Positions 11,958 to 27,784 of a stretch of DNA of 35,930 nucleotides are shown in pieces (position 1 is the stretch's first letter; each line of letters begins with the position of its first letter). The stretch is from a virus. The translations under genes and the position numbers were made by a program. The stretch spans positions 1-35,930 of IMG/VR virus record IMGVR_UViG_3300025869_000042. The stretch is one strand, 5' to 3'. The notes under the pieces are model-generated. The model made no database searches. It saw nothing but the letters and a program-made list of their open reading frames with translations, and was not told where the DNA came from.

Positions 11958-14900
11958 ATGGATCTTAACAAATTTAGCCCTGAAAAATTGCAAGAAATTG
12001 CTAACCGCAATGGCATAACAGTTGAAGAGCTATTAGCAAATAATACTGAGGGAAAGCAGAACGACTTGATGGAAACAGACCCACCAACAAGTCAGAATAC
12101 AGAAACGTCCGCTGGGGAATCCAGATCGGGCGATATTTCTTTGGGGTCACCAAACTTTGAGCCTTATCTTTTAACACTTGAAGATTTAGAGGGTGAAGAA
12201 GAAGACGTAGAGCCACGCATAAAAGATAAAATGCAAGCGCTAGGCATTAGAACCGACCAAACTGGCTGGGGAAATACTATTATGTTGCAAAGCCAATCTA
12301 TAGATGGGCAAGGGCATCGTGTTAGAACTTCGGCAAAATTAAAGGATAAACAAAAAGCGCTTGAGCAATTAAACACGTTTATTTTAGAGCAAGGTGACCT
12401 TGGCTACGCTGATAAAATTAAAGCAGAAAACCAAGATGTTATTAATAAATACTATGAAGCTACTGCTGAAAAAGAAGTTGGTCTTAGCGAAGCTAATGAC
12501 ATTTATGTAGATTCAAAAATAAATAGTTGGAATAAAGCGGAAACTATATCTACCCCTAGAATGGATGGTAGCAGTATGTTTGTGGCCAACCAAAAAAGAA
12601 CTCTTGAGGCAAAAGATTTTGAAACGCCAGAAGAGCTCGATGAGTATTTAAACTGGAAAGAAACCGGTGTAGTTAATACTACAGAAGATCAGATCAAGTC
12701 GTTTAGAGAAGAGCTGATATTTAATAATAAGATAAGAAGCGGACAAAAATATATTGATAACCTTCCAGACGACGTAAAAGAGTCTGTGGCGGCTGTACTT
12801 TCAAAAGAAAAAGTGGATTTAGCTTATAGAGCTAATAACATAGAAAATGAGATTGGCCAAATTCAAATGGCTGAAAACGATCTTGCTTATAGAATAGAAG
12901 AATTTAAAAACAATCCTACTAATCAGCAGGATTTATTTAATTTACAAGAAGAAATCCTTTCACTACAAAATCAAAGATCTGAGGTAGCCTCATTTATTGA
13001 AACTATATCAGATACTGATGATTTAATGATTGCAGTAGATAACTTTAATAAAGACTATAGCTTGCTTAATAAGCTAGGCGTAGACTTTAAAAGAACTGCT
13101 GTAGATTTAGGTTATGCCGGTGCACAGTTAATTACACTTTTAGGTACAGGTGTAGCCAAAGGAGTAGAATTTGCTGATGATGAGGTAATGGACGAGCTAG
13201 ATGCAGCGTGGTTGCCCCTAATTGAAAGAGGCCAAAAAGAAAGTCAGTTATTTGCTACAGCACCTACTTTAGAGCAAGTAGAAGACTTAGATGACTTATT
13301 TGATTGGGTAGGTAGCACAGCGATCGGAGCGATACCTTCTTTATCTATGGCCTTTGCCGGACCAGCAGCAATGCCTTTATTCTTTCTTAGTGGCTATGGT
13401 GGTACATCTAGTGAAATAATGATGAACCAGTATGAAGCTACAAAAAGGTTAGCTACAAATGCTGAGATATTAGAGAATCAAAGGGTTAACATGTCTCCTG
13501 AAGAAATTTCAGAGATTGAAACTTTAATGGAGGAAGATGCTAAAATAGCAAATTTGCCCCAGTGGAGAAAGATTACAACATCAGCGTGGGCCGGTATGTC
13601 CGAAGTGCTTTTTGAAAGACTTGGTACTATGGCTATTCTTAAAAATGCGTCAAAAGCCATTAACCCGACAAGCTTAACTGGAGCGGGAATAAAATTTGCA
13701 AAAGCTTCTAACCAAGAAGGTATGTCAGAGGGTGCAACCCAAATTTCTAACAATTTTGGAAAATGGGCCTTTATGGGCGAACAAGTTAACTTATTCGAAG
13801 GATTAGGTGAAGCTTATGCGGGTGGTGCTCTTATAGGCGGTCCTTTATCTTTAAAAAGTGTAGCCCCTGCGGTTTACGAGTATGCGGTAAGTACTCTTAT
13901 GGATAAAAACACTCGTGCAGATATCCAAGCTAAGCTTAATCAATTAGAAGAGTTAACTGGTATAGACAACTTACAGAACGTATTAGATCCTAATACTGAT
14001 TTAGAAGGGCTATCCCCAGAAGTAAAAAAGCTAGCTACTGAAGTAATTGGTGAAATTGAATTGTTAAAATCAGGTATTGCAAACAGATTGGGTAACGATT
14101 TATCTAATGACGTTGTAATAGAGGTTGGCCGTATTTCTTTAGAAATGCAGCAGATAAACGAAAGGTTTACAAAAATTGCTCAATCAGGTGTGGCTGGTGC
14201 CGAATTAGTTGCGGCAGAAAAAACATTAAGAGCTAAGTTTGATAAACTTGCAGATAAGCGGGAAGCATTGCTTTCATATGAGACTAATACAAAAGAGGCT
14301 AAAGCTTACAACGCTTCTTTAAAGGCATCGATGGATGCGTCAGCAGGTTACGCGTCTATGCTTTATTTACAGAACGCTAGAAAACAATCTGAAAGCTTTA
14401 GAGAATTTAATAGACTAAAAAATTCGGCACGAAGCAAGTACTTATCACAAGCAAAAGAAAACCTTGGGGAAAATGCTACTAGTGAAGAAATAAGATTAGA
14501 AGCTGGAAAGTCTTTTCATATTGAAAAAACCAAAAATCTTATTAGCGAAAATAAGATTACTGCAGACGAACTTTTAAAAGCAAGCGGATTAGAAGTTGAA
14601 CTTATAGAAGCTAATGAGGCTGAATTTATAAAGCGTGGCGGTAACAAAGATGGGGATGCATTTATTAGCGCTGATGGTAAAACAATTGTAGTTAATATGG
14701 ATGTTGCTGCGGCAAACGGTCGTACAGGAGTATGGGCGCATGAAGCACTTCACGCTATTGTTCAAGACAAACTTGGTAGTAACAAAGACGCAAACGCTGC
14801 GGGAGAAGAATTATTAGGTTGGCTACAAAAAAATGCACCCGAAACTCATTCTTACGTTAAAGCTAGGCTTGATTTAGCTTACACTAGAGATGGTGTAAAA

Positions 14901-17900
14901 GCTGACGCATATTACGAGGAAACAATGAATGTGCTTTCTGATTACATTGCGGAAGGCAACGAAATAGGGCTAAAGTCTTTATCACAAATCAACGTATTTG
15001 TAAACAACCTTGTTCGGGGAGACAAAACTTCAATTAAAATACAGGACGGCGAACAAACATTTGCATTTATAGCCAATTACGCTAATAAAAATAAGTCAAA
15101 GAAAACTGCTAAGCTTATTAGAAATTTTGCTAGAGCATTTCAAAATGAAGAAAGAAAAAGCAAAAAAGACTCACAGTCTATATCTAAAGAAGCAGAACGT
15201 GCAAAGCAGGTTTTAGAAAAAGTAAGTTCCAATATGGAATTCTTTGATCCTAACTCTCCTTTAATTGCAAAAGTAATTGATGGCATGGTTCAGGCGCAGT
15301 TGGCTAAGCTATCTATAAAAGGATTAAAGTTTGATGCGGAAGAAGCTAAGTACGATATTATTGCCAGAATATACTACAACCAAGACATAAACAAGTTTGA
15401 CGGTAGAGGTACGCTGTATGGTTATATAAATGGTCGTATTAGTTTCCGCATTAAAGACATGCTTAAGGCTTCTGGTGAGGGGAAAAACGATATTGTTGAC
15501 GATTTTAACCAGAGCGACGTAGAGGACCTTAAAGGAGCTGCGGCTGATGTTACCACTATAGAACAAGTAGAAGAGCGTGTGGAAGCCGAAAGAGCCACGT
15601 ATCGCCCTTTATTAGATAGTCGTATGGCTACGCCAGAGTTGGTTGAGGCTTTAATGGAAAAAATACCAAGAGTTGTAGGCACACTTAAAAATCGTATTGA
15701 CGCACCGATTTCAAAAAACACAACTGTTACACCTTTAATGAACGAATTACGTTTAGCATTGGGTAAGCAGGTGGACATTGATTTGAAAAAAGCAATGGGT
15801 GGCAAGAAAGACGGGGTGCTAAGAAAATTTTTAGTAGCTAACAAAAAAGCTATTCTTGAAAACATGACCACTACTTATTTGATGACAGCTTTTCCCGCTG
15901 CCATTCAAAAGAAAGTTAATGGCGTATTTACAAGCGATTGGAAAGGTAAAAAAATTGATCGCGAAACTACAAATACGGATAAAGCAGGTAGAACATCAGG
16001 AGCTGAAATAGCAAGAAGACTACCTCAAGCTTCATTAAAAATAGATGACAAAACATTCTTGTCATTTATTCTTGACGAAAAAGGTAATCCATTACGTGGT
16101 AAAAAAGAGTCTCTTGCCAAAGCTATTGGCGAAGAAATGGCTATTGAAATTGTTAACCGTGAAATGCAAGATCCGGATAGCAAAATACGCCAGGCTTTAG
16201 AAGCTAACCAAGAAAGATTAGGTGTAGAGCAAATAAATGATTTTGCTACTAAGTTAGCTCTTGATTCTGAGCGCGGTAATGTTAAAGCTTCTAATAGCTT
16301 TACAATAGAAGAAACACGTCAAGAAGATGTAATTAAAGCTTTGCGTGTTGGTGTTAAGTATTGGAGCGGTCAAGACGATGCAAAAGCTATGTCCGCGTTA
16401 GAAGACCCCAACAATAAGGGCAATTTTAAGCCAGAAGTAATTGAATATTTACAAAAAGATGCTTTAAAAAAGAAAACTAAAACAACTAAAATAGTTGATA
16501 TATCAAATGTTGATTTTTCAAAATTATTTTATACTCTTTCTAAAGCTGAAGATGCGGGGCTGCTTGATGAATATTCTAGCGGGCCTCAAATTGCACGTTT
16601 AATTACAGAATCAGACCTTTTTGACGGCGAACTTAAATATACTTCTATAGAAACGCTTGTAAAAAAAGCTGAAAGTGGTGATGCCGATGCCATACTTGAA
16701 CTACAAGCCCACAATACGGAAACGTTATCTCTTGTTTCTTTATTTAATGCTGAAGAAATTAAAAAATTTGGAGGAGTAGAATTTTTTAGTAGCACTAAAG
16801 ATCAAATAATTAATTTACGAAAAGAAATTAATGAAAGCAAGATAGGAAGCACAATTACTAATATTATTGAAGATGCTAGTCCTTATCATTCAGAAGCATC
16901 ATCTATAGCAGAATCAATTCGTGTTTATCAAAAAAGTAAAAAAGGAATACCAAAAAATTTAGAAGGCGAAGAGGTATTTAAAATGAGGCTAAGCATTGTG
17001 CAGCGTACCAACATTGCAAATAAAGCATTAGTAACTGCTATAGCTGAAAGAATGGTTTTAGCGGTTCAGTATGAACTAGTATCTCCCGTCACACTTTTAA
17101 GGATCTTGCAAAAGCAAAATAAATCACAAACTAAGGGGTTCAGGGCATTTGGTCAATTAATATATGCTTCTTTAAATATAGAGGGTACACCAAAAATTGA
17201 GCACGTTTATCCCAATGTTCAGTTATCTTTTGATATTATTAAAATTGCTATTGAGGCTAGAAATGCTAGGATTGCGTCAAATATTGATCCTAATATTATA
17301 ACATTAAAAGTTACTCAAGAGCTAAATAAGTTATTTCAAAAAAATACATTGTGGGCTACAGATCAAAAAGTTACTGATTTTGTTGATACCACAGGTACTT
17401 CAAATCCAATAGGTATTTTAAGAGCAATTACCTTGGCTAAAGCGGATAGAAAAAATATTGTTGCTTTCGTAAGCGAAAATAATAAACTGCAAACGCTTGA
17501 GGATCATATTAATAATGAACAGCAGCGAGCAATATATGAGCAGCAAATTGACATTAACTACGAAAATGCTCAAAGAGCTAAAGATTTATTAAACCAGTCT
17601 GTTAAAAATTCATCAAGCGTTCCAATTGCCGTGTTTATGGTCGGGGCTCCTGGTGCGGGAAAATCCAGCGTTTTAAAAGGTTTAGGCTTAACTGATAAAG
17701 GATACAGATTAGTTAACCAAGACCCTTACTTAGAAGGATACATTAAAGAGGCCGGGCTACCAACCGACGAAAAAACTTATGACAAGGAGCAGCGTTCTTT
17801 ACGGGCTAAGCTAGGTTGGAAAGCTAGAAAAGCCGCTGAAGAAGATTTAGCTAGGAATACTGCCGCAAAAGAAAGTATGGTAGTCGATGGCACCGGCGCA

Positions 17901-20390
17901 TCATATAAAGCTACAACGAAAAAAATGAAAGCTTTAGAAGATGCAGGGTTTGAAATACATATGGTGCATGTTAAAACTAGTAAAAATGTAGCTGTTGACA
18001 GAAATAAAAGTAGAACAGAAAGATCATTAGCTGACTTTATAGTAACCAAAACTTGGGATAGCGTACAAGAAAGCGCTAAGCAGTATAAGGAAGACTATGC
18101 AGGTCGCTTTTACGAGATTAATACTGACAATCTTTCTTACGGTGAAGCTTTACCTGAAGCATTTGTAAATCAAGTAACTACTGGGCTGGAAGCATCCGGC
18201 GCTAAGTTTAGCCAAGGGCTAAGTGAAGAGCTTAACGGAATGATTGAGCGGACTAAAGGAGTGGCTGCTGACAAGATTTATTCAAAAGCTCAAGCTCGTA
18301 TGATGGGTGAGAGAAAAGGTAAATACCGCTTGTTTGTGCCGGCATCAGCTGAAGACTTTAGAGGCTTAACCTCATACACCTTTGCAGGAAAAGGGAAGCA
18401 AGGGGAAGCTGATCAAAAGTTTATTGAAGATAATATAATAACTCCTTATACTAGGGGTATTGCAATGATTGAAGCTGTAAAGCAGCAGATTCGTCGCGAA
18501 CTTAATGCCTTAAGAAAGGCAGATAAAAAGTTGTTTAAAATGCTAGGTAAGAAAATTGCAAATAGCGATTACACTTATGACCATGCATTAAGGGTGTACA
18601 TGTGGACCCAGCAAGGTATAGATATACCGGGAATGGATAAAAACGACATTAGATTTTTGATCAACGCTATTAATGCAATGCCACAGTTTATTGAAATGGG
18701 TAATGCGATGCAGCTTATATCTAGACAAGATACATGGATGGAGCCGGGTGAGCATTGGTTATCTCGCACTTTAGTTTCCGATTTGAACGGAATGACTGAA
18801 AAAGTTGGTAGAAAGAAATATTTACAAGAATTTATTGAAAACTCTGAAGCAATATTTAGTGCTGAAAACTTAAACAAAATAGAAGCCGTTTACGGAACGC
18901 GACATAAAGAAGCTATAAAAGATGCTTTATTTGCAATGACTAACGGTACTAACCGCACAACAGGCAGTGATAATGCACAGGTGAATGCTTGGTATAACTG
19001 GGTGAACAACTCTACTGGTGCTATTATGTTCTTTAACCGTCGGTCTGCAATATTACAAACTCTTTCAACCGCTAACTTTATAAACTGGTCAGACAACAAT
19101 CCTTTAAAAGTTGCGGCGGCCTTTGCAAATCAACCTCAATATTGGTCTGACTTTGCAATGATATTTAATTCTGACAAGTTAAAAGAACGTAGATCGGGAT
19201 TACAAACAGATGTAAACCAGGCGGAAATTGCTAATGAAGCAAAAGGTGCAAAAAATAGAGCGGGTGCTGTGATTGCTTACTTGCTAAAAATTGGTTTTAC
19301 ACCTACTCAAATTGCGGATAGTTTTGCTATTGCAGCTGGGGGTGCGTCGTTTTATAGAAATCGCGTAAATACTTACGTTAAAGAAGGTATGGAGCAGGCG
19401 GCCGCAGAAAAGCAAGCATTTGAAGACTTTAGCAAAACCGCGGACGAAGCACAGCAATCTTCTGACCCATATTTGGTTTCTCAAGAGCAACGTAGTCCTT
19501 TAGGTCGTCTTGTATTAGCATTCCAGAATACTCCGATGCAGTATACTCGATTGATGAAAAAAGCGATGAAAGATCTTGCTAATGGTAGAGGCGATGCTAA
19601 AACACATATATCTAAGATTATTTATTATGGTGCAGTGCAGAACTTTATATTCTCTGCATTACAAAGCGCATTGTTTGCTATCATACCTGGATTTGACGAA
19701 GAAGACGAGTCTGAAATGACAGAAAAAGAGCTAGAAAAGCTTGAACGTAAAAATGACCAAAGAACCTTGCGTATTATTAATAGCATGACAGATTCTGTTT
19801 TAAAAGGTAGCGGGGTTAGAGGCGCAGTAATTGCAACGCTTAAAAATACTATTACAGAGTATTTTAAACAAGAAGAAAAAGGATTTATGTCCGACCACAC
19901 CTACACTATACTACAAGCGTTAAGTTTGTCTCCACCTATTGGTTCAAAAGCTAGAAAACTTTATTCAGCTATTCAAACCAAAAAGTTTGAAAGAGATACT
20001 TTAGCAGCCAGAGGTTTTGATGTTATGGCTGACGGTAAGTTAAATTTAAGTCCAGCTTATTCTATTATAGGTAACCTTTCATCTGCACTCGGAAATGTAC
20101 CGCTTGATCGTATTGTTGATGAGCTTAACTCAATAGTCGAAGCACTCGATTCTCGCAACACAACTTGGCAACGTATAGCATTAGCACTTGGCTGGAAGAC
20201 TTGGGACGTAGGCGCTAAAAATGAAGAGCACGATCTTATTAAGACTGAAGCTAAAGCAAAACGAAAAGAGGAAGGTAAAGTTAAAGCTAAAGAAACTCGG
20301 GCTACAAATGCAAAAAAGAAAGAATCAGAAAAAATAGATAAGGCTCTTGAGAATTACTATATCAGATATCCTGAACGTAGGCCTAAATAA
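11958..20390 (+). CDS. Giant polyvalent virion protein with zincin and Zeta-toxin-like domains
   Basis: A single 2810-residue frame. Visible parts: a hydrophobic Gly/Ala/Pro segment near residues 450-480; a zinc metallopeptidase motif H928-E-A-L-H932 with a downstream helix containing YYEETMNVLSDYIAEG that could give the third ligand; a segment with K1146-F-D then LYGYINGRISFRIKDML that weakly recalls sigma region 2; a P-loop G1896-A-P-G-A-G-K1902-S with a following NQDPYLEG and VVDGTGA, as in Zeta-toxin/polynucleotide-kinase-like enzymes; and a C-terminal part with a hydrophobic helix near 2565-2580 and a highly basic end. Phage polyvalent proteins combine such domains and are thought to be injected with the DNA. 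Its place as last of the ejection-like trio supports virion packaging. The activities are predicted, not shown. Confidence 0.75.
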   Translation: MDLNKFSPEKLQEIANRNGITVEELLANNTEGKQNDLMETDPPTSQNTETSAGESRSGDISLGSPNFEPYLLTLEDLEGEEEDVEPRIKDKMQALGIRTDQTGWGNTIMLQSQSIDGQGHRVRTSAKLKDKQKALEQLNTFILEQGDLGYADKIKAENQDVINKYYEATAEKEVGLSEANDIYVDSKINSWNKAETISTPRMDGSSMFVANQKRTLEAKDFETPEELDEYLNWKETGVVNTTEDQIKSFREELIFNNKIRSGQKYIDNLPDDVKESVAAVLSKEKVDLAYRANNIENEIGQIQMAENDLAYRIEEFKNNPTNQQDLFNLQEEILSLQNQRSEVASFIETISDTDDLMIAVDNFNKDYSLLNKLGVDFKRTAVDLGYAGAQLITLLGTGVAKGVEFADDEVMDELDAAWLPLIERGQKESQLFATAPTLEQVEDLDDLFDWVGSTAIGAIPSLSMAFAGPAAMPLFFLSGYGGTSSEIMMNQYEATKRLATNAEILENQRVNMSPEEISEIETLMEEDAKIANLPQWRKITTSAWAGMSEVLFERLGTMAILKNASKAINPTSLTGAGIKFAKASNQEGMSEGATQISNNFGKWAFMGEQVNLFEGLGEAYAGGALIGGPLSLKSVAPAVYEYAVSTLMDKNTRADIQAKLNQLEELTGIDNLQNVLDPNTDLEGLSPEVKKLATEVIGEIELLKSGIANRLGNDLSNDVVIEVGRISLEMQQINERFTKIAQSGVAGAELVAAEKTLRAKFDKLADKREALLSYETNTKEAKAYNASLKASMDASAGYASMLYLQNARKQSESFREFNRLKNSARSKYLSQAKENLGENATSEEIRLEAGKSFHIEKTKNLISENKITADELLKASGLEVELIEANEAEFIKRGGNKDGDAFISADGKTIVVNMDVAAANGRTGVWAHEALHAIVQDKLGSNKDANAAGEELLGWLQKNAPETHSYVKARLDLAYTRDGVKADAYYEETMNVLSDYIAEGNEIGLKSLSQINVFVNNLVRGDKTSIKIQDGEQTFAFIANYANKNKSKKTAKLIRNFARAFQNEERKSKKDSQSISKEAERAKQVLEKVSSNMEFFDPNSPLIAKVIDGMVQAQLAKLSIKGLKFDAEEAKYDIIARIYYNQDINKFDGRGTLYGYINGRISFRIKDMLKASGEGKNDIVDDFNQSDVEDLKGAAADVTTIEQVEERVEAERATYRPLLDSRMATPELVEALMEKIPRVVGTLKNRIDAPISKNTTVTPLMNELRLALGKQVDIDLKKAMGGKKDGVLRKFLVANKKAILENMTTTYLMTAFPAAIQKKVNGVFTSDWKGKKIDRETTNTDKAGRTSGAEIARRLPQASLKIDDKTFLSFILDEKGNPLRGKKESLAKAIGEEMAIEIVNREMQDPDSKIRQALEANQERLGVEQINDFATKLALDSERGNVKASNSFTIEETRQEDVIKALRVGVKYWSGQDDAKAMSALEDPNNKGNFKPEVIEYLQKDALKKKTKTTKIVDISNVDFSKLFYTLSKAEDAGLLDEYSSGPQIARLITESDLFDGELKYTSIETLVKKAESGDADAILELQAHNTETLSLVSLFNAEEIKKFGGVEFFSSTKDQIINLRKEINESKIGSTITNIIEDASPYHSEASSIAESIRVYQKSKKGIPKNLEGEEVFKMRLSIVQRTNIANKALVTAIAERMVLAVQYELVSPVTLLRILQKQNKSQTKGFRAFGQLIYASLNIEGTPKIEHVYPNVQLSFDIIKIAIEARNARIASNIDPNIITLKVTQELNKLFQKNTLWATDQKVTDFVDTTGTSNPIGILRAITLAKADRKNIVAFVSENNKLQTLEDHINNEQQRAIYEQQIDINYENAQRAKDLLNQSVKNSSSVPIAVFMVGAPGAGKSSVLKGLGLTDKGYRLVNQDPYLEGYIKEAGLPTDEKTYDKEQRSLRAKLGWKARKAAEEDLARNTAAKESMVVDGTGASYKATTKKMKALEDAGFEIHMVHVKTSKNVAVDRNKSRTERSLADFIVTKTWDSVQESAKQYKEDYAGRFYEINTDNLSYGEALPEAFVNQVTTGLEASGAKFSQGLSEELNGMIERTKGVAADKIYSKAQARMMGERKGKYRLFVPASAEDFRGLTSYTFAGKGKQGEADQKFIEDNIITPYTRGIAMIEAVKQQIRRELNALRKADKKLFKMLGKKIANSDYTYDHALRVYMWTQQGIDIPGMDKNDIRFLINAINAMPQFIEMGNAMQLISRQDTWMEPGEHWLSRTLVSDLNGMTEKVGRKKYLQEFIENSEAIFSAENLNKIEAVYGTRHKEAIKDALFAMTNGTNRTTGSDNAQVNAWYNWVNNSTGAIMFFNRRSAILQTLSTANFINWSDNNPLKVAAAFANQPQYWSDFAMIFNSDKLKERRSGLQTDVNQAEIANEAKGAKNRAGAVIAYLLKIGFTPTQIADSFAIAAGGASFYRNRVNTYVKEGMEQAAAEKQAFEDFSKTADEAQQSSDPYLVSQEQRSPLGRLVLAFQNTPMQYTRLMKKAMKDLANGRGDAKTHISKIIYYGAVQNFIFSALQSALFAIIPGFDEEDESEMTEKELEKLERKNDQRTLRIINSMTDSVLKGSGVRGAVIATLKNTITEYFKQEEKGFMSDHTYTILQALSLSPPIGSKARKLYSAIQTKKFERDTLAARGFDVMADGKLNLSPAYSIIGNLSSALGNVPLDRIVDELNSIVEALDSRNTTWQRIALALGWKTWDVGAKNEEHDLIKTEAKAKRKEEGKVKAKETRATNAKKKESEKIDKALENYYIRYPERRPK

Positions 20391-22879: not shown

Positions 22880-23089
22880 TTACATGATATTCAAAAGCCT
22901 ATCACCTTTTTCTTTATCTATTGCTCTAATCTCATAAAGCAATTCTTGTTCTTTAGCGTAAGCGTCGCGTCGCTCTTCACCGGTAGATTCTATACCTAGG
23001 TTAGTAAATATAGATGCGCATTCCTGTAACTTTTCGTCGATTAGTTTTTTCTTGCAGGCATCACACATTCTTCCATGTACCGCACACAT
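22880..23089 (-). CDS. Small Cys-rich protein, last gene of the leftward array
   Basis: A 69-aa protein beginning MCAVHGRMCDACKKKL (C2, C9, C12), then a charged helical region. A C-x6-C-x2-C cluster could form part of a metal site, but a fourth ligand is not obvious. The start overlaps the stop of the 40-aa upstream gene (TAATG). The product is unknown. Confidence 0.6.
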   Translation of the reverse strand: MCAVHGRMCDACKKKLIDEKLQECASIFTNLGIESTGEERRDAYAKEQELLYEIRAIDKEKGDRLLNIM

Positions 23090-23211
23090 TAGCTACCACA
23101 TCCTTCGCATTCAGGATTATCAATACTGCATGCATTATCATTCTTATCATCCGTTGTAAGTTCATCAACAAAGTCAGCGAAGCTATCTGACACGTCAAAA
23201 TCGTTTTTCAT
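23089..23211 (-). CDS. 40-aa acidic peptide with Cys-rich C-terminus
   Basis: ATG at 23211; the frame ends at 23089 and shares the TAATG overlap with the next gene. It starts MKNDFDVSDSFADFVDEL and ends DNPECEGCGS, with three cysteines in the last 12 residues plus one before. It is too short for common ORF cut-offs but fills the gap exactly and is coupled to a good gene. Function unknown. Confidence 0.6.
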   Translation of the reverse strand: MKNDFDVSDSFADFVDELTTDDKNDNACSIDNPECEGCGS

Positions 23212-23219
23212 AGTGTTTG

Positions 23220-23381
23220 TTATTTATATATTTGTATTGCGATATCAAAAAAGGGTAGGTAGAATACATGCGAGGTAATATCATCATTGTGATAACTACG
23301 CATACCTATTAAGACTCCTGGATAGAAGCCTAACGATATAGCCCATTGGCCGCTGAGATCTTCATTTTCGTTTTCCTGCAT
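23220..23381 (-). CDS. 53-aa conserved-looking phage peptide (GFYPG family)
   Basis: ATG at 23381, inside the end of the upstream gene (20-nt overlap). The sequence has QWAISLGFYPGVLIGMRSY in the middle and VFYLPFFDIAIQIYK at the end. I recognise the pattern GFYPG-hydrophobic-G-x-R ... YLPF-x-D-I-A from small phage proteins of unknown function. It has no clear membrane helix. Confidence 0.65.
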   Translation of the reverse strand: MQENENEDLSGQWAISLGFYPGVLIGMRSYHNDDITSHVFYLPFFDIAIQIYK

Positions 23382-23541
23382 GCTCTTTAATTCTTTCAAT
23401 TTCTAAAATCAGTTCTTTGTACTTAACTCGTCCGCGTTGGCGCCACGACCACTGTACCCACTTGTCTATCTGCCTATCTATGTATTGCTTCCGAGCGTTT
23501 TCTTTTGGCGCTCTAGAATTAACTCCACTACCATGTCGCAT
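23362..23541 (-). CDS. 59-aa basic peptide overlapping the endonuclease gene
   Basis: ATG at 23541 lies 64 nt inside the 3' end of the endonuclease gene in another frame, and the stop overlaps the next gene by 20 nt. The middle is strongly basic and aromatic (DKWVQWSWRQRGRVKYKEL), the end helical and charged. It fills the region between two good genes, but the long overlap lowers certainty. Confidence 0.5.
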   Translation of the reverse strand: MRHGSGVNSRAPKENARKQYIDRQIDKWVQWSWRQRGRVKYKELILEIERIKEHAGKRK

Positions 23542-23948
23542 TCTTTCTGATTTTGAGGTTTATACAATGTGAAGGGTTCAAGCTTATTCTCAGCTATGTA
23601 CTTCTTAAACAACTTCCAGCGCATCGGAAATGATTCGTTAGCTCTACCTTTAGTTTCAATAATAAAGTGCTTGCCTACAAAGTCCGGCGTGTATTTAATG
23701 TTGAGGATTTTTTTATTTCCTCTATTAATAAATTCGCCTTTACCATTCCCCGTCCGCTCGAAACTTTCAAATGGGAATTCAAAAGACTGTTGTAGTTCAA
23801 ATGTTTCTCCTTCATATAGTGCAGCTATTTTAGCTTTTCTTAAAGCCATATACATATACTTCTCTAGCCCTGATGCAAAGTTGATACCATCATATGATAC
23901 TTTTTTTGCTCTTACGGGTCCTTTCTTTCTGCTGTATTTTTTTTTCAT
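23478..23948 (-). CDS. T7 endonuclease I-like nuclease (Holliday junction resolvase type)
   Basis: A 156-aa protein if started at ATG 23948 (MKKKYSRKKG), which is 1 nt past the upstream stop; the longer frame to 24056 lies in the upstream gene. Motifs follow the T7 gp3 / PD-(D/E)XK pattern: FASGLEKYMY (E for metal binding), IKYTPDFV (PDF), then FIIETKGRANESFPMRWKLF (E-x-K). Such enzymes resolve branched DNA and, in T7, help degrade host DNA. It belongs to the replication/recombination gene block. Confidence 0.82.
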   Translation of the reverse strand: MKKKYSRKKGPVRAKKVSYDGINFASGLEKYMYMALRKAKIAALYEGETFELQQSFEFPFESFERTGNGKGEFINRGNKKILNIKYTPDFVGKHFIIETKGRANESFPMRWKLFKKYIAENKLEPFTLYKPQNQKECDMVVELILERQKKTLGSNT

Positions 23949-23949
23949 A

Positions 23950-24174
23950 TTACTCCTCGGAGCTTGGTGCTTCATACTTTTCTTTTGCTTTTTGCAAATA
24001 CAGCACAGCGTCCATAAGTTCTTCTTGTAAGTGATTAAGCCAAGCAAGCATTTCACTTGGATCTTCTTCTAATGTAACGCCGTACTTTTTATAACCTACG
24101 TCTGAACGACCAACAAACTTATCTACTACGCGTTCAACTACTGGATCGCGGAAGGCAATTGTTTTTTGTTTCAT
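23950..24174 (-). CDS. Small MazG-like (all-alpha NTP pyrophosphohydrolase-like) protein
   Basis: A 74-aa helical protein with GYKKYGVTLE and LAWLNHLQEELMDAVLYL; E51-E52-x-x-D55 resembles half of a MazG/all-alpha NTP-PPase metal site. The start overlaps the stop of the upstream MazG fusion gene (ATGA). Similar short proteins are common in phages; it could hydrolyse a (d)NTP as a multimer or assist its larger neighbour. T4 dCTPase (gp56) belongs to this superfamily. Catalysis is not certain because a second acidic motif is missing. Confidence 0.55.
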   Translation of the reverse strand: MKQKTIAFRDPVVERVVDKFVGRSDVGYKKYGVTLEEDPSEMLAWLNHLQEELMDAVLYLQKAKEKYEAPSSEE

Positions 24175-24986
24175 AGTGTTTCAGTCTTAGACTTAAGGTA
24201 ATTAGAGAAGGCTTCTTCTTTAACGAACGTGCCGTTTTCCATTTTGCCTTTACGATTAGCTATCTGAGTATAAGCAGCATCAATACATTCTTCAATTTTA
24301 TAGCCGCCAAGATGTGCGAGGTTTGTAAGTACAACAACCATATCGCCAATAGCATCAACAAACTCAACTTCGTCATTCTTTAAGATAGCTTGAGCAAGCT
24401 CACCACTTTCTTCCATAAGCTTAACATATTGAGTTTTCTTATCGCCACTTTCATAAATGCCGCGGTCTCCTGCCCATTTGCGTATCAACTCAAATTTAGC
24501 AATGTCTTCTTCTTCGGGTTCAACTTTAGCAAACATACCCTGCTCGTACTTCTTGAAGGCTTCATTATAAATGTAGCATCGGTCTTCAGTGTACATGCTT
24601 TTCATCGCATTGTTTAGTATCCACTCTGCGTTACGACCACTTAACGTAAAGCGATCACCTTGAGGAGTTACCCATGATACGCCCATTACGTTGCCAAGAT
24701 ATTCCTTTAGCTGCAAAATATGCACAGGGAATGTAGTAGTCTGATCAGTTACATTGATTTTCATAATATTAGATTTAAATAAATTCTTGTACTCAATACG
24801 GTCTACCGGGTAGCCATAAGACTTTTGAAGTTCTATTTCTAATTTTGATACCTGATCGATATCATCACCTGCAAATAGAACCTCATATTCTTCTTCAGCA
24901 TAACCTTGTTGCTGAGTAACTCTCTTATCAAGATTACGCGTTACGCCAATCTTTTTACCTGGAATGTGATAAATAAAATACTTCAT
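24171..24986 (-). CDS. GIY-YIG domain fused to MazG-like nucleotide pyrophosphohydrolase
   Basis: A 271-aa fusion. Residues 3-65 look like a compact GIY-YIG domain (FIYHIPGKKIGVTRNLDKRV, with R22, and E50 in KLEIELQKSYGYPVDR). Residues 75-150 are a linker domain of unknown type. Residues 165-250 are MazG-like: E192-E193-x-x-E196 and D211-x-x-x-D215 (EFVDAIGDMVVVL) form the Mg-binding acidic set. The MazG part should hydrolyse a (d)NTP to the monophosphate and PPi. Start and stop are coupled to neighbours (TAATG with the ThyA-like gene, ATGA with the next), which suggests a nucleotide-pool role. Confidence 0.75.
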   Translation of the reverse strand: MKYFIYHIPGKKIGVTRNLDKRVTQQQGYAEEEYEVLFAGDDIDQVSKLEIELQKSYGYPVDRIEYKNLFKSNIMKINVTDQTTTFPVHILQLKEYLGNVMGVSWVTPQGDRFTLSGRNAEWILNNAMKSMYTEDRCYIYNEAFKKYEQGMFAKVEPEEEDIAKFELIRKWAGDRGIYESGDKKTQYVKLMEESGELAQAILKNDEVEFVDAIGDMVVVLTNLAHLGGYKIEECIDAAYTQIANRKGKMENGTFVKEEAFSNYLKSKTETL

Positions 24987-25816
24987 TACATGCCTACACT
25001 TAAAGGTGCTTTTATCGCTGGCATCGGGTCATAATACTTAAGCTCTATTTCCCATTCATGAGGCACAACCACATCTTTATCATATCCAATTGTTAAGCCT
25101 AAACCAGCTAAGTCTAATACAGGAAGTAACTTACCACCTAATTGTCTGCTAAGCAATTCTTTAGACTGTTCTATATGGTTTGAATACAAATGACAATCAC
25201 CTAATTGAGCTATTAATCTACCCGGCTTGTAGCCTGCACCTTTAGCAAGTAGCTCTAGTAATAAACCGTACATGGCTATATCATAAGGCAAACCTAAAAA
25301 CACGTCCGCCGAACGCTGTTGCCACATTAGATCAAGCTGGTTATTGTTTATATAAACTTGAAAGCCATAATGGCAAGGAGGCAACGCCATATGGTGTAAT
25401 TCAGACGGGTTCCATGCATTGACTATAAGGCGTCTAGATTCCGGCTTAGTCATTATACCTATAATTAATCTTTGGAGCTGGTCAACGCCGTTAAAATCGC
25501 GCCATTGCTTACCGTACACAGGACCAAGCGTTCCATCTGTACGTCCCGAGCGTTTATAATCAGGATCCCAATAGTTAATTCCGTTATCTCTTAAGTATTG
25601 TATATCTGTACGGCCCTGCAAAATCCACAGCAGCTCAAACTTCGCAGCTTTAAACGAAACCTTTTTAGATAATAAAAGCGGGAAACCCGCTGACATATCA
25701 TGTTCTAGCGTTTTGCCGAAAAGAGAATAAGTACCTGTACCTGTTCGATCAGGTTTGTAGGGTGCGTCTAATAGTTCTTTGATTAAACTACGATACTGCG
25801 TTTCTATGTTTTTCAT
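24986..25816 (-). CDS. Thymidylate-synthase-family enzyme, probably dCMP-specific methylase/hydroxymethylase
   Basis: A 276-aa full-length ThyA-family protein. Catalytic C148 lies in MALPPCHYGFQ; R128-R129 (PESRRL), R168-S169 and D171 (QQRSADVFLGLPYDIAMYG), and HLYSNH are all present, and the C-terminus keeps the IKAP signature. The key departure is D179: dUMP-specific enzymes have Asn here (E. coli N177, L. casei N229). T4 dCMP hydroxymethylase has Asp179 with Cys148, the same numbers, and N-to-D mutants of thymidylate synthase are known to accept dCMP. So it probably makes 5-methyl- or 5-hydroxymethyl-dCMP, using methylene-tetrahydrofolate. Ordinary thymidylate synthase remains possible. 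Confidence 0.85.
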   Translation of the reverse strand: MKNIETQYRSLIKELLDAPYKPDRTGTGTYSLFGKTLEHDMSAGFPLLLSKKVSFKAAKFELLWILQGRTDIQYLRDNGINYWDPDYKRSGRTDGTLGPVYGKQWRDFNGVDQLQRLIIGIMTKPESRRLIVNAWNPSELHHMALPPCHYGFQVYINNNQLDLMWQQRSADVFLGLPYDIAMYGLLLELLAKGAGYKPGRLIAQLGDCHLYSNHIEQSKELLSRQLGGKLLPVLDLAGLGLTIGYDKDVVVPHEWEIELKYYDPMPAIKAPLSVGM

Positions 25817-26072
25817 AATAATAAATATAGTATTTATAAACTTGTTTTCGTGCGTCCTCTGCTAAATACTTACTAGGGTCTCTACTTTTCTTTTTGCCAA
25901 TCTCTATTTCTACAAAGAATTTCTTAGGTCCCTCGCCCGTCTCAGCTGCTAATAACCCAATTCGAATGTCATTCTTTAAGCACCATACCATTGCTTGGTA
26001 TTCGTACTCTGATCTGTAATAGCTGCCCCAATTGGTTTTCTTAGACTTTTTACTTTTTGTACCGCTACCCAT
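25788..26072 (-). CDS. Small protein of unknown function between primase and ThyA-like genes
   Basis: A 94-aa protein, ATG at 26072 overlapping the primase stop (TAATG); a GTG further upstream is not needed. The N-terminus is basic (GSGTKSKKSKKTNWGSYY) and the remainder is charged and Tyr-rich (RKQVYKYYIYYYEKHR). It overlaps the ThyA-like gene by 29 nt. The order suggests a replication or nucleotide role, but nothing in the sequence tells which. Confidence 0.6.
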   Translation of the reverse strand: MGSGTKSKKSKKTNWGSYYRSEYEYQAMVWCLKNDIRIGLLAAETGEGPKKFFVEIEIGKKKSRDPSKYLAEDARKQVYKYYIYYYEKHRNAVS

Positions 26073-27784
26073 TATTCCCACGGCATTTTATCACTAGCAA
26101 AGCTAGTAGGGTTTTCAATAGCTTTATAGCCACCACTGTCCGACTGCCATTTAAAATGAGCCTCAGCACCATTCTCGCCTAAGTTTTGGAACTTAACCTT
26201 AAGCACTTTTACTTTAACAGTTCGAGCATCGTAATCTCTATGAACAAGCAGTCCGTGATACGAAGCGTCGTACCATTCCCCACCACCTTTAATATTATAC
26301 ATGGTTGGCTCTTCAATCTTGCCATTACCATCTTTATACATTTTAGTAGGGTGAGCAACAACTATAACTAGTACATCGTACTTCTTAGCAAAGATGTCTA
26401 TTTGTTCTAAGTAATCAAGCGTGTATTGATTAACGTCGGTTGATGGCTTAGTAGAACGTACTTTATTGTAAGGGTCTATTACTAAACACTTTATACCTTT
26501 ACGCTTTACTAACTCAGCACCTTTCTTTAAAACATGCTCAAGCGCATACTTTTCCATATCAATATGATAAAAGCTACTATTGCAGAGATCAGCGATTTGA
26601 TTCCACTTTTCAGTGTTTATATCAGCTTCACTTGGCATGCCACCCCAAATCTTACGCATAAGTTTGTGGGCATGTAAAAAAGTAGGTTGATTTTCAGGAG
26701 AGGCATATGCAGTTTTCCAACCATATAATTGGTTGTAGCCTACACACATTTGATCTACGAAATCAGACTTGCCAGAACTGGGGATACCAGTAACAGTAAT
26801 AAACTGACCAGTGTAAGTGCTAAAGATGCTATCAAACTCGCGAAGACCAATTTGATAACCTGGTTTAAATCCATTCCGAACAAAATCTGTGACATCTCCT
26901 TCAATATCTCGGAAGGTTGTAACGTTTTCAAGGGGGACTGGGGTAGCAGCGGTAATTCTACTAACAAGTTTTTCTTTGCCATATTTAACAAGATATTCGT
27001 TTGCGTCTTTACAATCGTCGAAAGTGGCGATGTAACATACTTCTGTACCAAGTCTTCTAATAAGTTCCTGCTGTAGAGCTTGGCCAGCTTCATCAGAATC
27101 TACAGCTATAATAATTTTTTCTTGATCTAAGAAGTAATCAATTGTATTATCTAAGTACTCAAGATTGTTTGTATTAAGTGTTGCGCCGTTGGGGACAGAG
27201 ACAGCATTTGTAACACCTGCTTCATGCAGCGCTAACACGTCCATCTCGCCCTCAACGATTACGCAGTACTCATATCCTACTATACTATTAATATTGTAGA
27301 ATACCTTTTCAGCACCCTTAAAGAGCTTAAAATTTTTGCGACCGTCTCGATACTTTACGTTTACGAGTTGGTCACCAACAAAATAATTAAATTGAATTGT
27401 GTGCTCTAATTTCCCAGTTTGGGGCATAAACTCATCACCGTCAGTTACTCCGACTTCGTATAATGTAGACCTTGATATACCTCGAGAAGCAAACCACTCG
27501 GCAACTTTATCGTTGACGGCAGCTTGCTCTTCTGGTTGTGTAGGTTTAACATATACTTTCTCGGCTTTACCCTTACGATTAAAAGTATGGAGCTGAAAAG
27601 TTTTATTACAATTATGACAAGTACCAAGACCCCGTTCCCAATCGTATGAAGCACATTGGTCCTTCTGATTTTTGGGTTTCCTATCGTGAGAACACAGTGG
27701 ACATATGCCTTGTGACTTTCCCTCTTCAAGGCCATGTTGATTGAATTTATCAATCTCAAATCCATTGATCTCTGTTGTCTGCAT
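26072..27784 (-). CDS. T7 gp4-type primase-helicase
   Basis: A 570-aa bifunctional replication protein. Residues 28-59 are a zinc ribbon (C28-x2-C31 ... C56-x2-C59) that reads the priming template. The TOPRIM primase domain has VIVEGEMDVL (E178) and AVDSDEAGQ (D229, D231). The RecA-type helicase has a Walker A G333-x4-G-K339-S (GIPSSGKSDF) and a later Walker B (KCLVIDPYNK) and VIVVAHPTK motif. All catalytic parts are present, so it should prime lagging strands and unwind DNA. The partner DNA polymerase is not in the window. Confidence 0.93.
   Translation of the reverse strand: MQTTEINGFEIDKFNQHGLEEGKSQGICPLCSHDRKPKNQKDQCASYDWERGLGTCHNCNKTFQLHTFNRKGKAEKVYVKPTQPEEQAAVNDKVAEWFASRGISRSTLYEVGVTDGDEFMPQTGKLEHTIQFNYFVGDQLVNVKYRDGRKNFKLFKGAEKVFYNINSIVGYEYCVIVEGEMDVLALHEAGVTNAVSVPNGATLNTNNLEYLDNTIDYFLDQEKIIIAVDSDEAGQALQQELIRRLGTEVCYIATFDDCKDANEYLVKYGKEKLVSRITAATPVPLENVTTFRDIEGDVTDFVRNGFKPGYQIGLREFDSIFSTYTGQFITVTGIPSSGKSDFVDQMCVGYNQLYGWKTAYASPENQPTFLHAHKLMRKIWGGMPSEADINTEKWNQIADLCNSSFYHIDMEKYALEHVLKKGAELVKRKGIKCLVIDPYNKVRSTKPSTDVNQYTLDYLEQIDIFAKKYDVLVIVVAHPTKMYKDGNGKIEEPTMYNIKGGGEWYDASYHGLLVHRDYDARTVKVKVLKVKFQNLGENGAEAHFKWQSDSGGYKAIENPTSFASDKMPWE

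Follow-up and report, generated by a model that had tools for sequence, protein, structure and literature searches.

Several described members of the thymidylate synthase (ThyA) family act on cytosine nucleotides. The dCMP hydroxymethylase gp42 of phage T4 presents a signature made of an Asp145 at position −3 relative to the catalytic Cys, a Ser94-x-Tyr96 motif and a tail-less C-terminus, and its D145N change abolishes the product (PMC6400193). In the DNA of phage Xp12, 5-methylcytosine wholly replaces cytosine (PMC7653180; PMC9206674), and the ThyA enzymes of Xp12-like phages (Pamexvirus/Bosavirus, RDJL) bear an LPYD motif and have a PRA-PH/MazG-type pyrophosphohydrolase encoded in the adjacent gene. 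Among the synthases themselves, an Asn-to-Asp change, as engineered in Lactobacillus casei N229D (PDB 1njc) and Escherichia coli N177D, is reported to shift the enzyme to dCMP and to yield 5mdCMP (PMC8670742). In the MetaGPA study of coastal and sewage phages, Asp177 was associated with synthases encoded on modified-cytosine contigs and co-occurred with PRA-PH, position 147 being the second most differentiating site (PMC8670742). In our search of the literature, no report was found of cytosine modification with a thymidylate synthase in marine flavobacterial phages.

Here we describe a viral gene that we take, with a probability of about three in four, to be a dCMP C5-methylase, the natural equivalent of the engineered N177D/N229D enzymes, which together with a MazG dCTPase would place 5-methylcytosine in phage DNA. 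It lies in a viral fragment of 35.9 kb (35,930 nucleotides), hereafter the window, whose structural genes resemble those of Flavobacterium, Cellulophaga and Maribacter phages and whose primase/helicase resembles that of Cellulophaga and other phages. One family member with the same Asp-type ThyA (L081) is located in a Bacteroidetes MAG, and the host of this marine group of phages is probably to be sought among the Flavobacteria. The genes of the locus, read along the minus strand, are:

26072–27784, minus strand: primase/helicase, the fixed upstream flank of an interchangeable slot
25788–26081, minus strand: small conserved neighbour of 97 aa (gene cluster 7), ahead of ThyA in many relatives
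24986–25816, minus strand: ThyA-family gene of 276 aa, ATG to TAA, predicted dCMP C5-methylase (from the ORF, Pfam, alignment and model)
24171–24986, minus strand: downstream gene of 271 aa, with a GIY-YIG/T5orf172-like N-terminus, a middle part and a C-terminal MazG/PRA-PH pyrophosphohydrolase domain
23950–24174, minus strand: small conserved neighbour of 74 aa (gene cluster 6)
23478–24056, minus strand: DUF1064/Holliday junction resolvase-like gene, the fixed downstream flank of the slot; its listed start overlaps the preceding gene

Many relatives have ribonucleotide reductase genes downstream of the resolvase, where in the window (22880–23541) and in its nearest relatives there are small ORFs only. 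Elsewhere in the window, visual inspection of a presumed virion protein of 2810 aa (11958–20390, plus strand) suggests two motifs, one like the P-loop kinase motif of zeta toxins (GAPGAGKSSVLKGLGL...NQDPYLEGY) and one, HEALH, like that of metallopeptidases.

The first-pass annotation had recognized a ThyA-family enzyme at this place, without indicating its strand, and this was borne out: the protein matches Pfam Thymidylat_synt (PF00303) with an E-value of 2.8e-79, its AlphaFold model reaches a pLDDT of 87.8 and a pTM of 0.90, and the model is best matched by solved thymidylate synthases, 1njc (the dCMP complex of L. casei N229D) being one of them. Direct counting gives W83, C148, H149, D179 (in LGLPYDIAMYG) and a C-terminus that reads AIKAPLSVGM. 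The positions on which the argument depends are:

25280–25282, minus strand: codon of D179, the base-reading residue (E. coli Asn177, T4 gp42 Asp179), computed from the ORF start
25373–25375, minus strand: codon of the catalytic C148, by count and alignment
25382–25384, minus strand: codon of L145, three residues before the Cys; methylating synthases also have Leu at this place, and T4 gp42 has Asp
24989–25015, minus strand: tail IKAPLSVGM, on which closure and hydride transfer depend in thymidylate synthase and which T4 gp42 lacks

Alignment with the E. coli enzyme agrees with the earlier statement that the usual synthase residues are kept (Cys146, Glu58, Leu143, Tyr94 and the C-terminal IKAP(V/L) tail) except the one that reads the pyrimidine, where Asp stands for the Asn of dUMP synthases. 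The family consists of 81 members, that is, 80 viral relatives at 60–97% identity retrieved by protein search plus L081, found by genome scan; Tyr178, Asp179, Met182 and Gly275 are present in all of them. In the cellular homologues (79/79), positions 179 and 182 are Asn and Ser, and Gly275 is absent. The nearest Asn-type phage enzyme, that of Flavobacterium phage vB_FspM_immuto, shares with the window enzyme the PPCHYGFQ stretch and the APLS tail but, like all 80 of its viral relatives, presents Asn179 and Ser182 and no Gly275. Asp in 81/81 against Asn in 79/79 and 80/80 excludes a chance substitution. The engineered enzymes and the window family have in common a whole synthase framework with a single Asn-to-Asp switch, although the latter is natural and conserved and adds Tyr178, Met182 and the Gly after the tail Val. 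Since no isolate in the phage collection comes closer than about 45% over the length of ThyA, the Asp family has no cultured member there.

A pattern scan uncovered further viral synthase-like ThyA lineages with Phe-Asp at this position, 30–49% identical to the window enzyme, most of which keep Leu145 and His149; loci retrieved by Asp patterns carry Asp by construction and were left out of the evidence on this residue. Those with no window-type MazG nearby (L469, L473, L457, L453, L455, L459, L482, L485, L489, L479 and L472) are candidates for more natural dCMP methylases.

The strongest independent evidence starts from the gene that follows. The last base of the ThyA stop is also the first base of this 271-aa gene (TAATG), whose domains are disposed as follows:

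24807–24986, minus strand: GIY-YIG/T5orf172-like N-terminal part, approximately residues 1–60
24213–24497, minus strand: MazG domain and predicted dCTP pyrophosphatase, approximately residues 164–258; its EExxE...ExxD metal motif does not vary in A1

The N-terminal part matches T5orf172 with an E-value of 6e-4, just over the cut-off, and conserves YxYH...KxG.T...R...E50. The model of the protein finds good matches only among MazG-like structures, which do not indicate the substrate; the MazG-type fold and the metal motif of dCTP pyrophosphatases are both there. Of 82 loci, 79 have a MazG-like gene directly downstream of ThyA and 2 more have it two genes further along, within a conserved order of primase/helicase, ThyA, MazG and resolvase. 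Inside the window's own clade this adjacency was discounted, as it could reflect shared descent, and flavobacterial phages without ThyA commonly carry MazG-like genes of other subfamilies; for these reasons the search was run in reverse, the sole query being a MazG relative that stands alone, taken from L476, which is an Asp-type locus too. Among the 78 new loci obtained, 75 have a ThyA-family ORF in the flank, and Asp occupies the aligned site in 75/75; they comprise 53 T4-type enzymes, 16 synthase-like Asp-type enzymes and 6 that were unclassed. The remaining three include two that end near a contig edge and one with a ThyA elsewhere in the record. Between these kinds, the ThyA proteins are only 23–38% identical to the window enzyme, while the MazG domains are 61–73% identical to the window's. 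No such MazG was found in the flanks of Asn-type loci (80 viral, 79 cellular), those of immuto and its relatives being clear of it within 2.5 kb.

This genomic association with dCMP-type enzymes lends moderate support to a dCTPase role, comparable to that of T4 gp56, for the MazG-domain protein. It could also act on another dNTP, since Aeromonas phage Avpx2 has the same MazG subfamily and no ThyA at all. The subfamily is usable as a marker, every one of the 75 ThyA neighbours found by it having the dCMP-type Asp. Stand-alone MazG proteins of about 100 aa, belonging to this subfamily, adjoin other Asp-type ThyA genes in L450, L476 and L486–L488. A further Asp lineage, with PYDVALF/PYDIALF and Tyr in place of His after the catalytic Cys (L668, L633, L634, L635, L643 and L648), keeps Leu145 and a tail and adjoins the same MazG.

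The key comparison is that of this locus among close, syntenic relatives. Between the primase/helicase (about 940–1036 bits where complete) on one side and the MazG and resolvase genes on the other, with the flanking genes constant, there is a slot occupied by different enzymes: the window type in L660, L662, L664, L676 and L677; a T4-type enzyme bearing the complete hydroxymethylase signature, with NSNYG, DTPC, Asp and no synthase tail, in L661, L666, L669, L670, L672 and L680; and, in L668, an enzyme of a third Asp-type lineage with 35% identity. As L669, L670 and L672 are nearly alike, the six T4-type contigs represent about four distinct cases. These non-orthologous replacements share dCMP recognition, which argues that the window enzyme works on dCMP too. 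Together, the fixed Asp and, independently of it, the exchange at this locus with dCMP hydroxymethylases of the T4 type make a strong case for dCMP as the predicted substrate, in line with the cytosine specificity proposed by the first-pass annotation.

We lean towards an even broader view, according to which one phage clade, probably infecting Flavobacteria, would maintain a one-locus exchangeable slot for cytosine modification. A fixed MazG-domain dCTPase would be accompanied either by a 5-methyl-dCMP maker of synthase descent or by a T4-type 5-hydroxymethyl-dCMP maker; close relatives would switch cytosine chemistry by gene replacement, and the methyl-maker would constitute an independent re-run of the Asn-to-Asp mutant. 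The swap offers paired syntenic genomes with a predicted 5mC or 5hmC, so that the product rules (Leu or Asp before the catalytic Cys, tail or none) are testable on their virion DNA.

As for the product, the window enzyme does have the Asp179 and Cys148 of the T4-type dCMP hydroxymethylases, but the identical numbers, which the first-pass annotation had stressed, are a numbering coincidence in proteins that are 23% identical over 213 aa. The traits of the hydroxymethylase signature are missing: instead of Asp or Glu three residues before Cys148 there is Leu145, instead of Ser/Thr94-x-Tyr96 there is Pro-Val-Tyr (LGPVYG, Pro99), and instead of a tail-less end there is the IKAPLSVGM tail, its IKAP kept as previously noted. 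At the residue three before the Cys, the SPO1 dUMP hydroxymethylase has Asp and the Xp12-like enzymes have Asn. Leu145, LGPVYG, His149 and the IKAP tail compose the anatomy of a methylating enzyme, and His147, at the second most differentiating MetaGPA site, is also kept. The conservation of Trp83 (E. coli Trp80) is correct but does not serve as a product indicator, T4 gp42 having the same Trp; the residue that controls water access, E. coli Trp83, corresponds to Asp86 in the window enzyme, and Asn-type phage synthases are also devoid of Trp there. Leu145, Pro99 and the tail, along with the absence of the signature described for T4 (PMC6400193), favour methylation, so that the two reactions no longer stand on the equal footing initially given to them. 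There are, then, good grounds in the sequence for predicting a methyl product from dCMP, with some hydroxymethyl leakage possible in view of Asp86.

Regarding ancestry, a tree built from 86 sequences shows the members of the Asp family as a single clade (support 100/99), nested within the Asn-type synthases and apart from both the Xp12-like ThyA and T4 gp42. When the specificity columns were removed and Xp12-like enzymes were used as outgroup, it appeared as sister to the immuto clade, again with 100/99. The enzyme falls among ordinary synthases, but these carry Asn; a position among ordinary synthases with Asp, which the first-pass annotation had named as counter-evidence, did not emerge. The Xp12-like enzymes were represented by PaMx28, AXL1 and RDJL in place of Xp12 (MT664984), and by AXL1 and PaMx28 in the clade test. 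Their ThyA is 29% identical to the window enzyme, reads NVPCP where the latter reads LPPCH and has no IKAP tail, and their MazG belongs to another subfamily; both systems nevertheless place a base-reading Asp, in an enzyme of the methylating kind, beside a nucleotide pyrophosphohydrolase. In approximately unbiased (AU) tests, a shared origin of the Asp enzymes could not be rejected (p 0.27 and 0.37, the value of 0.27 being that for one clade with the Xp12-like ThyA, which the trees place apart), nor could the Asn rows as a single clade (p 0.12). Because these alternatives are left standing (p 0.12 to 0.37), an origin of Asp separate from the Xp12-like and T4 gp42 enzymes is favoured but not proven.

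The 30 relatives searched, of 48–72 kb, have exactly one ThyA each and are devoid of ThyX, DHFR, dCMP deaminase and T4-type dNMP kinase, as well as of a DNA C5-methyltransferase and of a 5hmC-type carbamoyltransferase. This content fits with borrowed host folate recycling and kinases; in the absence of a T4-type dNMP kinase, 5-methyl-dCMP would have to be phosphorylated by a host enzyme or by the product of an unrecognised gene. In the proposed mechanism, Asp179 would recognise cytosine and Cys148 would attack C6; the carbon would come from methylene-tetrahydrofolate, and the intact closed pocket would pass the hydride to give 5-methyl-dCMP and dihydrofolate. The overlapping MazG-domain protein would most likely convert dCTP to dCMP, lowering the competing dCTP and supplying substrate at once. 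Finally, host kinases and polymerase would insert 5-methylcytosine into phage DNA, probably for protection against restriction.

Four other explanations were weighed. A dCMP hydroxymethylase like T4 gp42, adding water in place of hydride and leading to phage DNA with 5-hydroxymethylcytosine, would suit the common Asp179 and Cys148, the interchange with T4-type hydroxymethylases at one locus and the non-Trp residue at the position of E. coli Trp83, but we judge it unlikely in view of the missing Ser94, Asp145 and tail-less end, the loss of product in T4 D145N (PMC6400193) and the lack of any known 5hmC-type carbamoyltransferase in the 30 relatives. That the enzyme is an ordinary dUMP synthase tolerating Asp and furnishing dTMP would agree with its remaining dUMP-synthase residues, with its nesting among Asn-type synthases and with the absence of a second ThyA or of ThyX. 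Such a role is nonetheless improbable: Asp and Met182 are fixed in 81/81 with no reversion, the Asn-to-Asp change is reported to turn the preference to dCMP (PMC8670742), and T4-type dCMP enzymes substitute at the same locus.

The same substitution by hydroxymethylases does not suit a thymidylate bypass, in which 5-methyl-dCMP would be a mere intermediate, deaminated to dTMP. This route is chemically possible, and in Xp12-like phages a gene for dCMP deaminase adjoins that of the Asp-type ThyA; with no such domain in the 30 relatives it would require a host enzyme, which makes it a quite improbable explanation. We give hardly any credit to the methylation or hydroxymethylation of a ribonucleotide or other cytosine compound: although MilA is a CMP enzyme of the ThyA family (PMC5175136), the window enzyme groups with deoxy-synthases, its neighbours are DNA replication genes and many relatives have a ribonucleotide reductase. 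Returning to dCMP methylation, it is very likely, judging from the genes, that these phages would build their DNA with a chemically modified cytosine, and we hold with moderate confidence that 5-methylcytosine would be that of the virion DNA. A synthase of near-ordinary sequence, altered at the switch residue, would demonstrate that a minimal change brings phages cytosine modification, in viruses annotated merely as carriers of thymidylate synthase.

A weak hint that agrees with restriction protection comes from C-containing 4-base palindromes, which are less avoided in the clade (window 1–35930; L413–L415, L417–L422, L428–L447), with a median observed/expected ratio of 0.87 against 0.59–0.84 in five controls, these being few and from other hosts (four marine Flavobacteria phages and one from a spring).

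Other phages of the comparison show modification-related genes of their own. In Flavobacterium phage immuto, annotated 7-deazaguanine DNA-modification genes (FolE, QueD, QueE, DpdA and QueF) lie near ThyA (L163:9862–16153). In Roseobacter phage RDJL1, gp18 (L260:1450–2496), annotated as a Cof hydrolase, seems to combine a MazG/PRA-PH part with a P-loop kinase-like part directly before the Asp-type ThyA, and is possibly a dCTPase plus nucleotide kinase.
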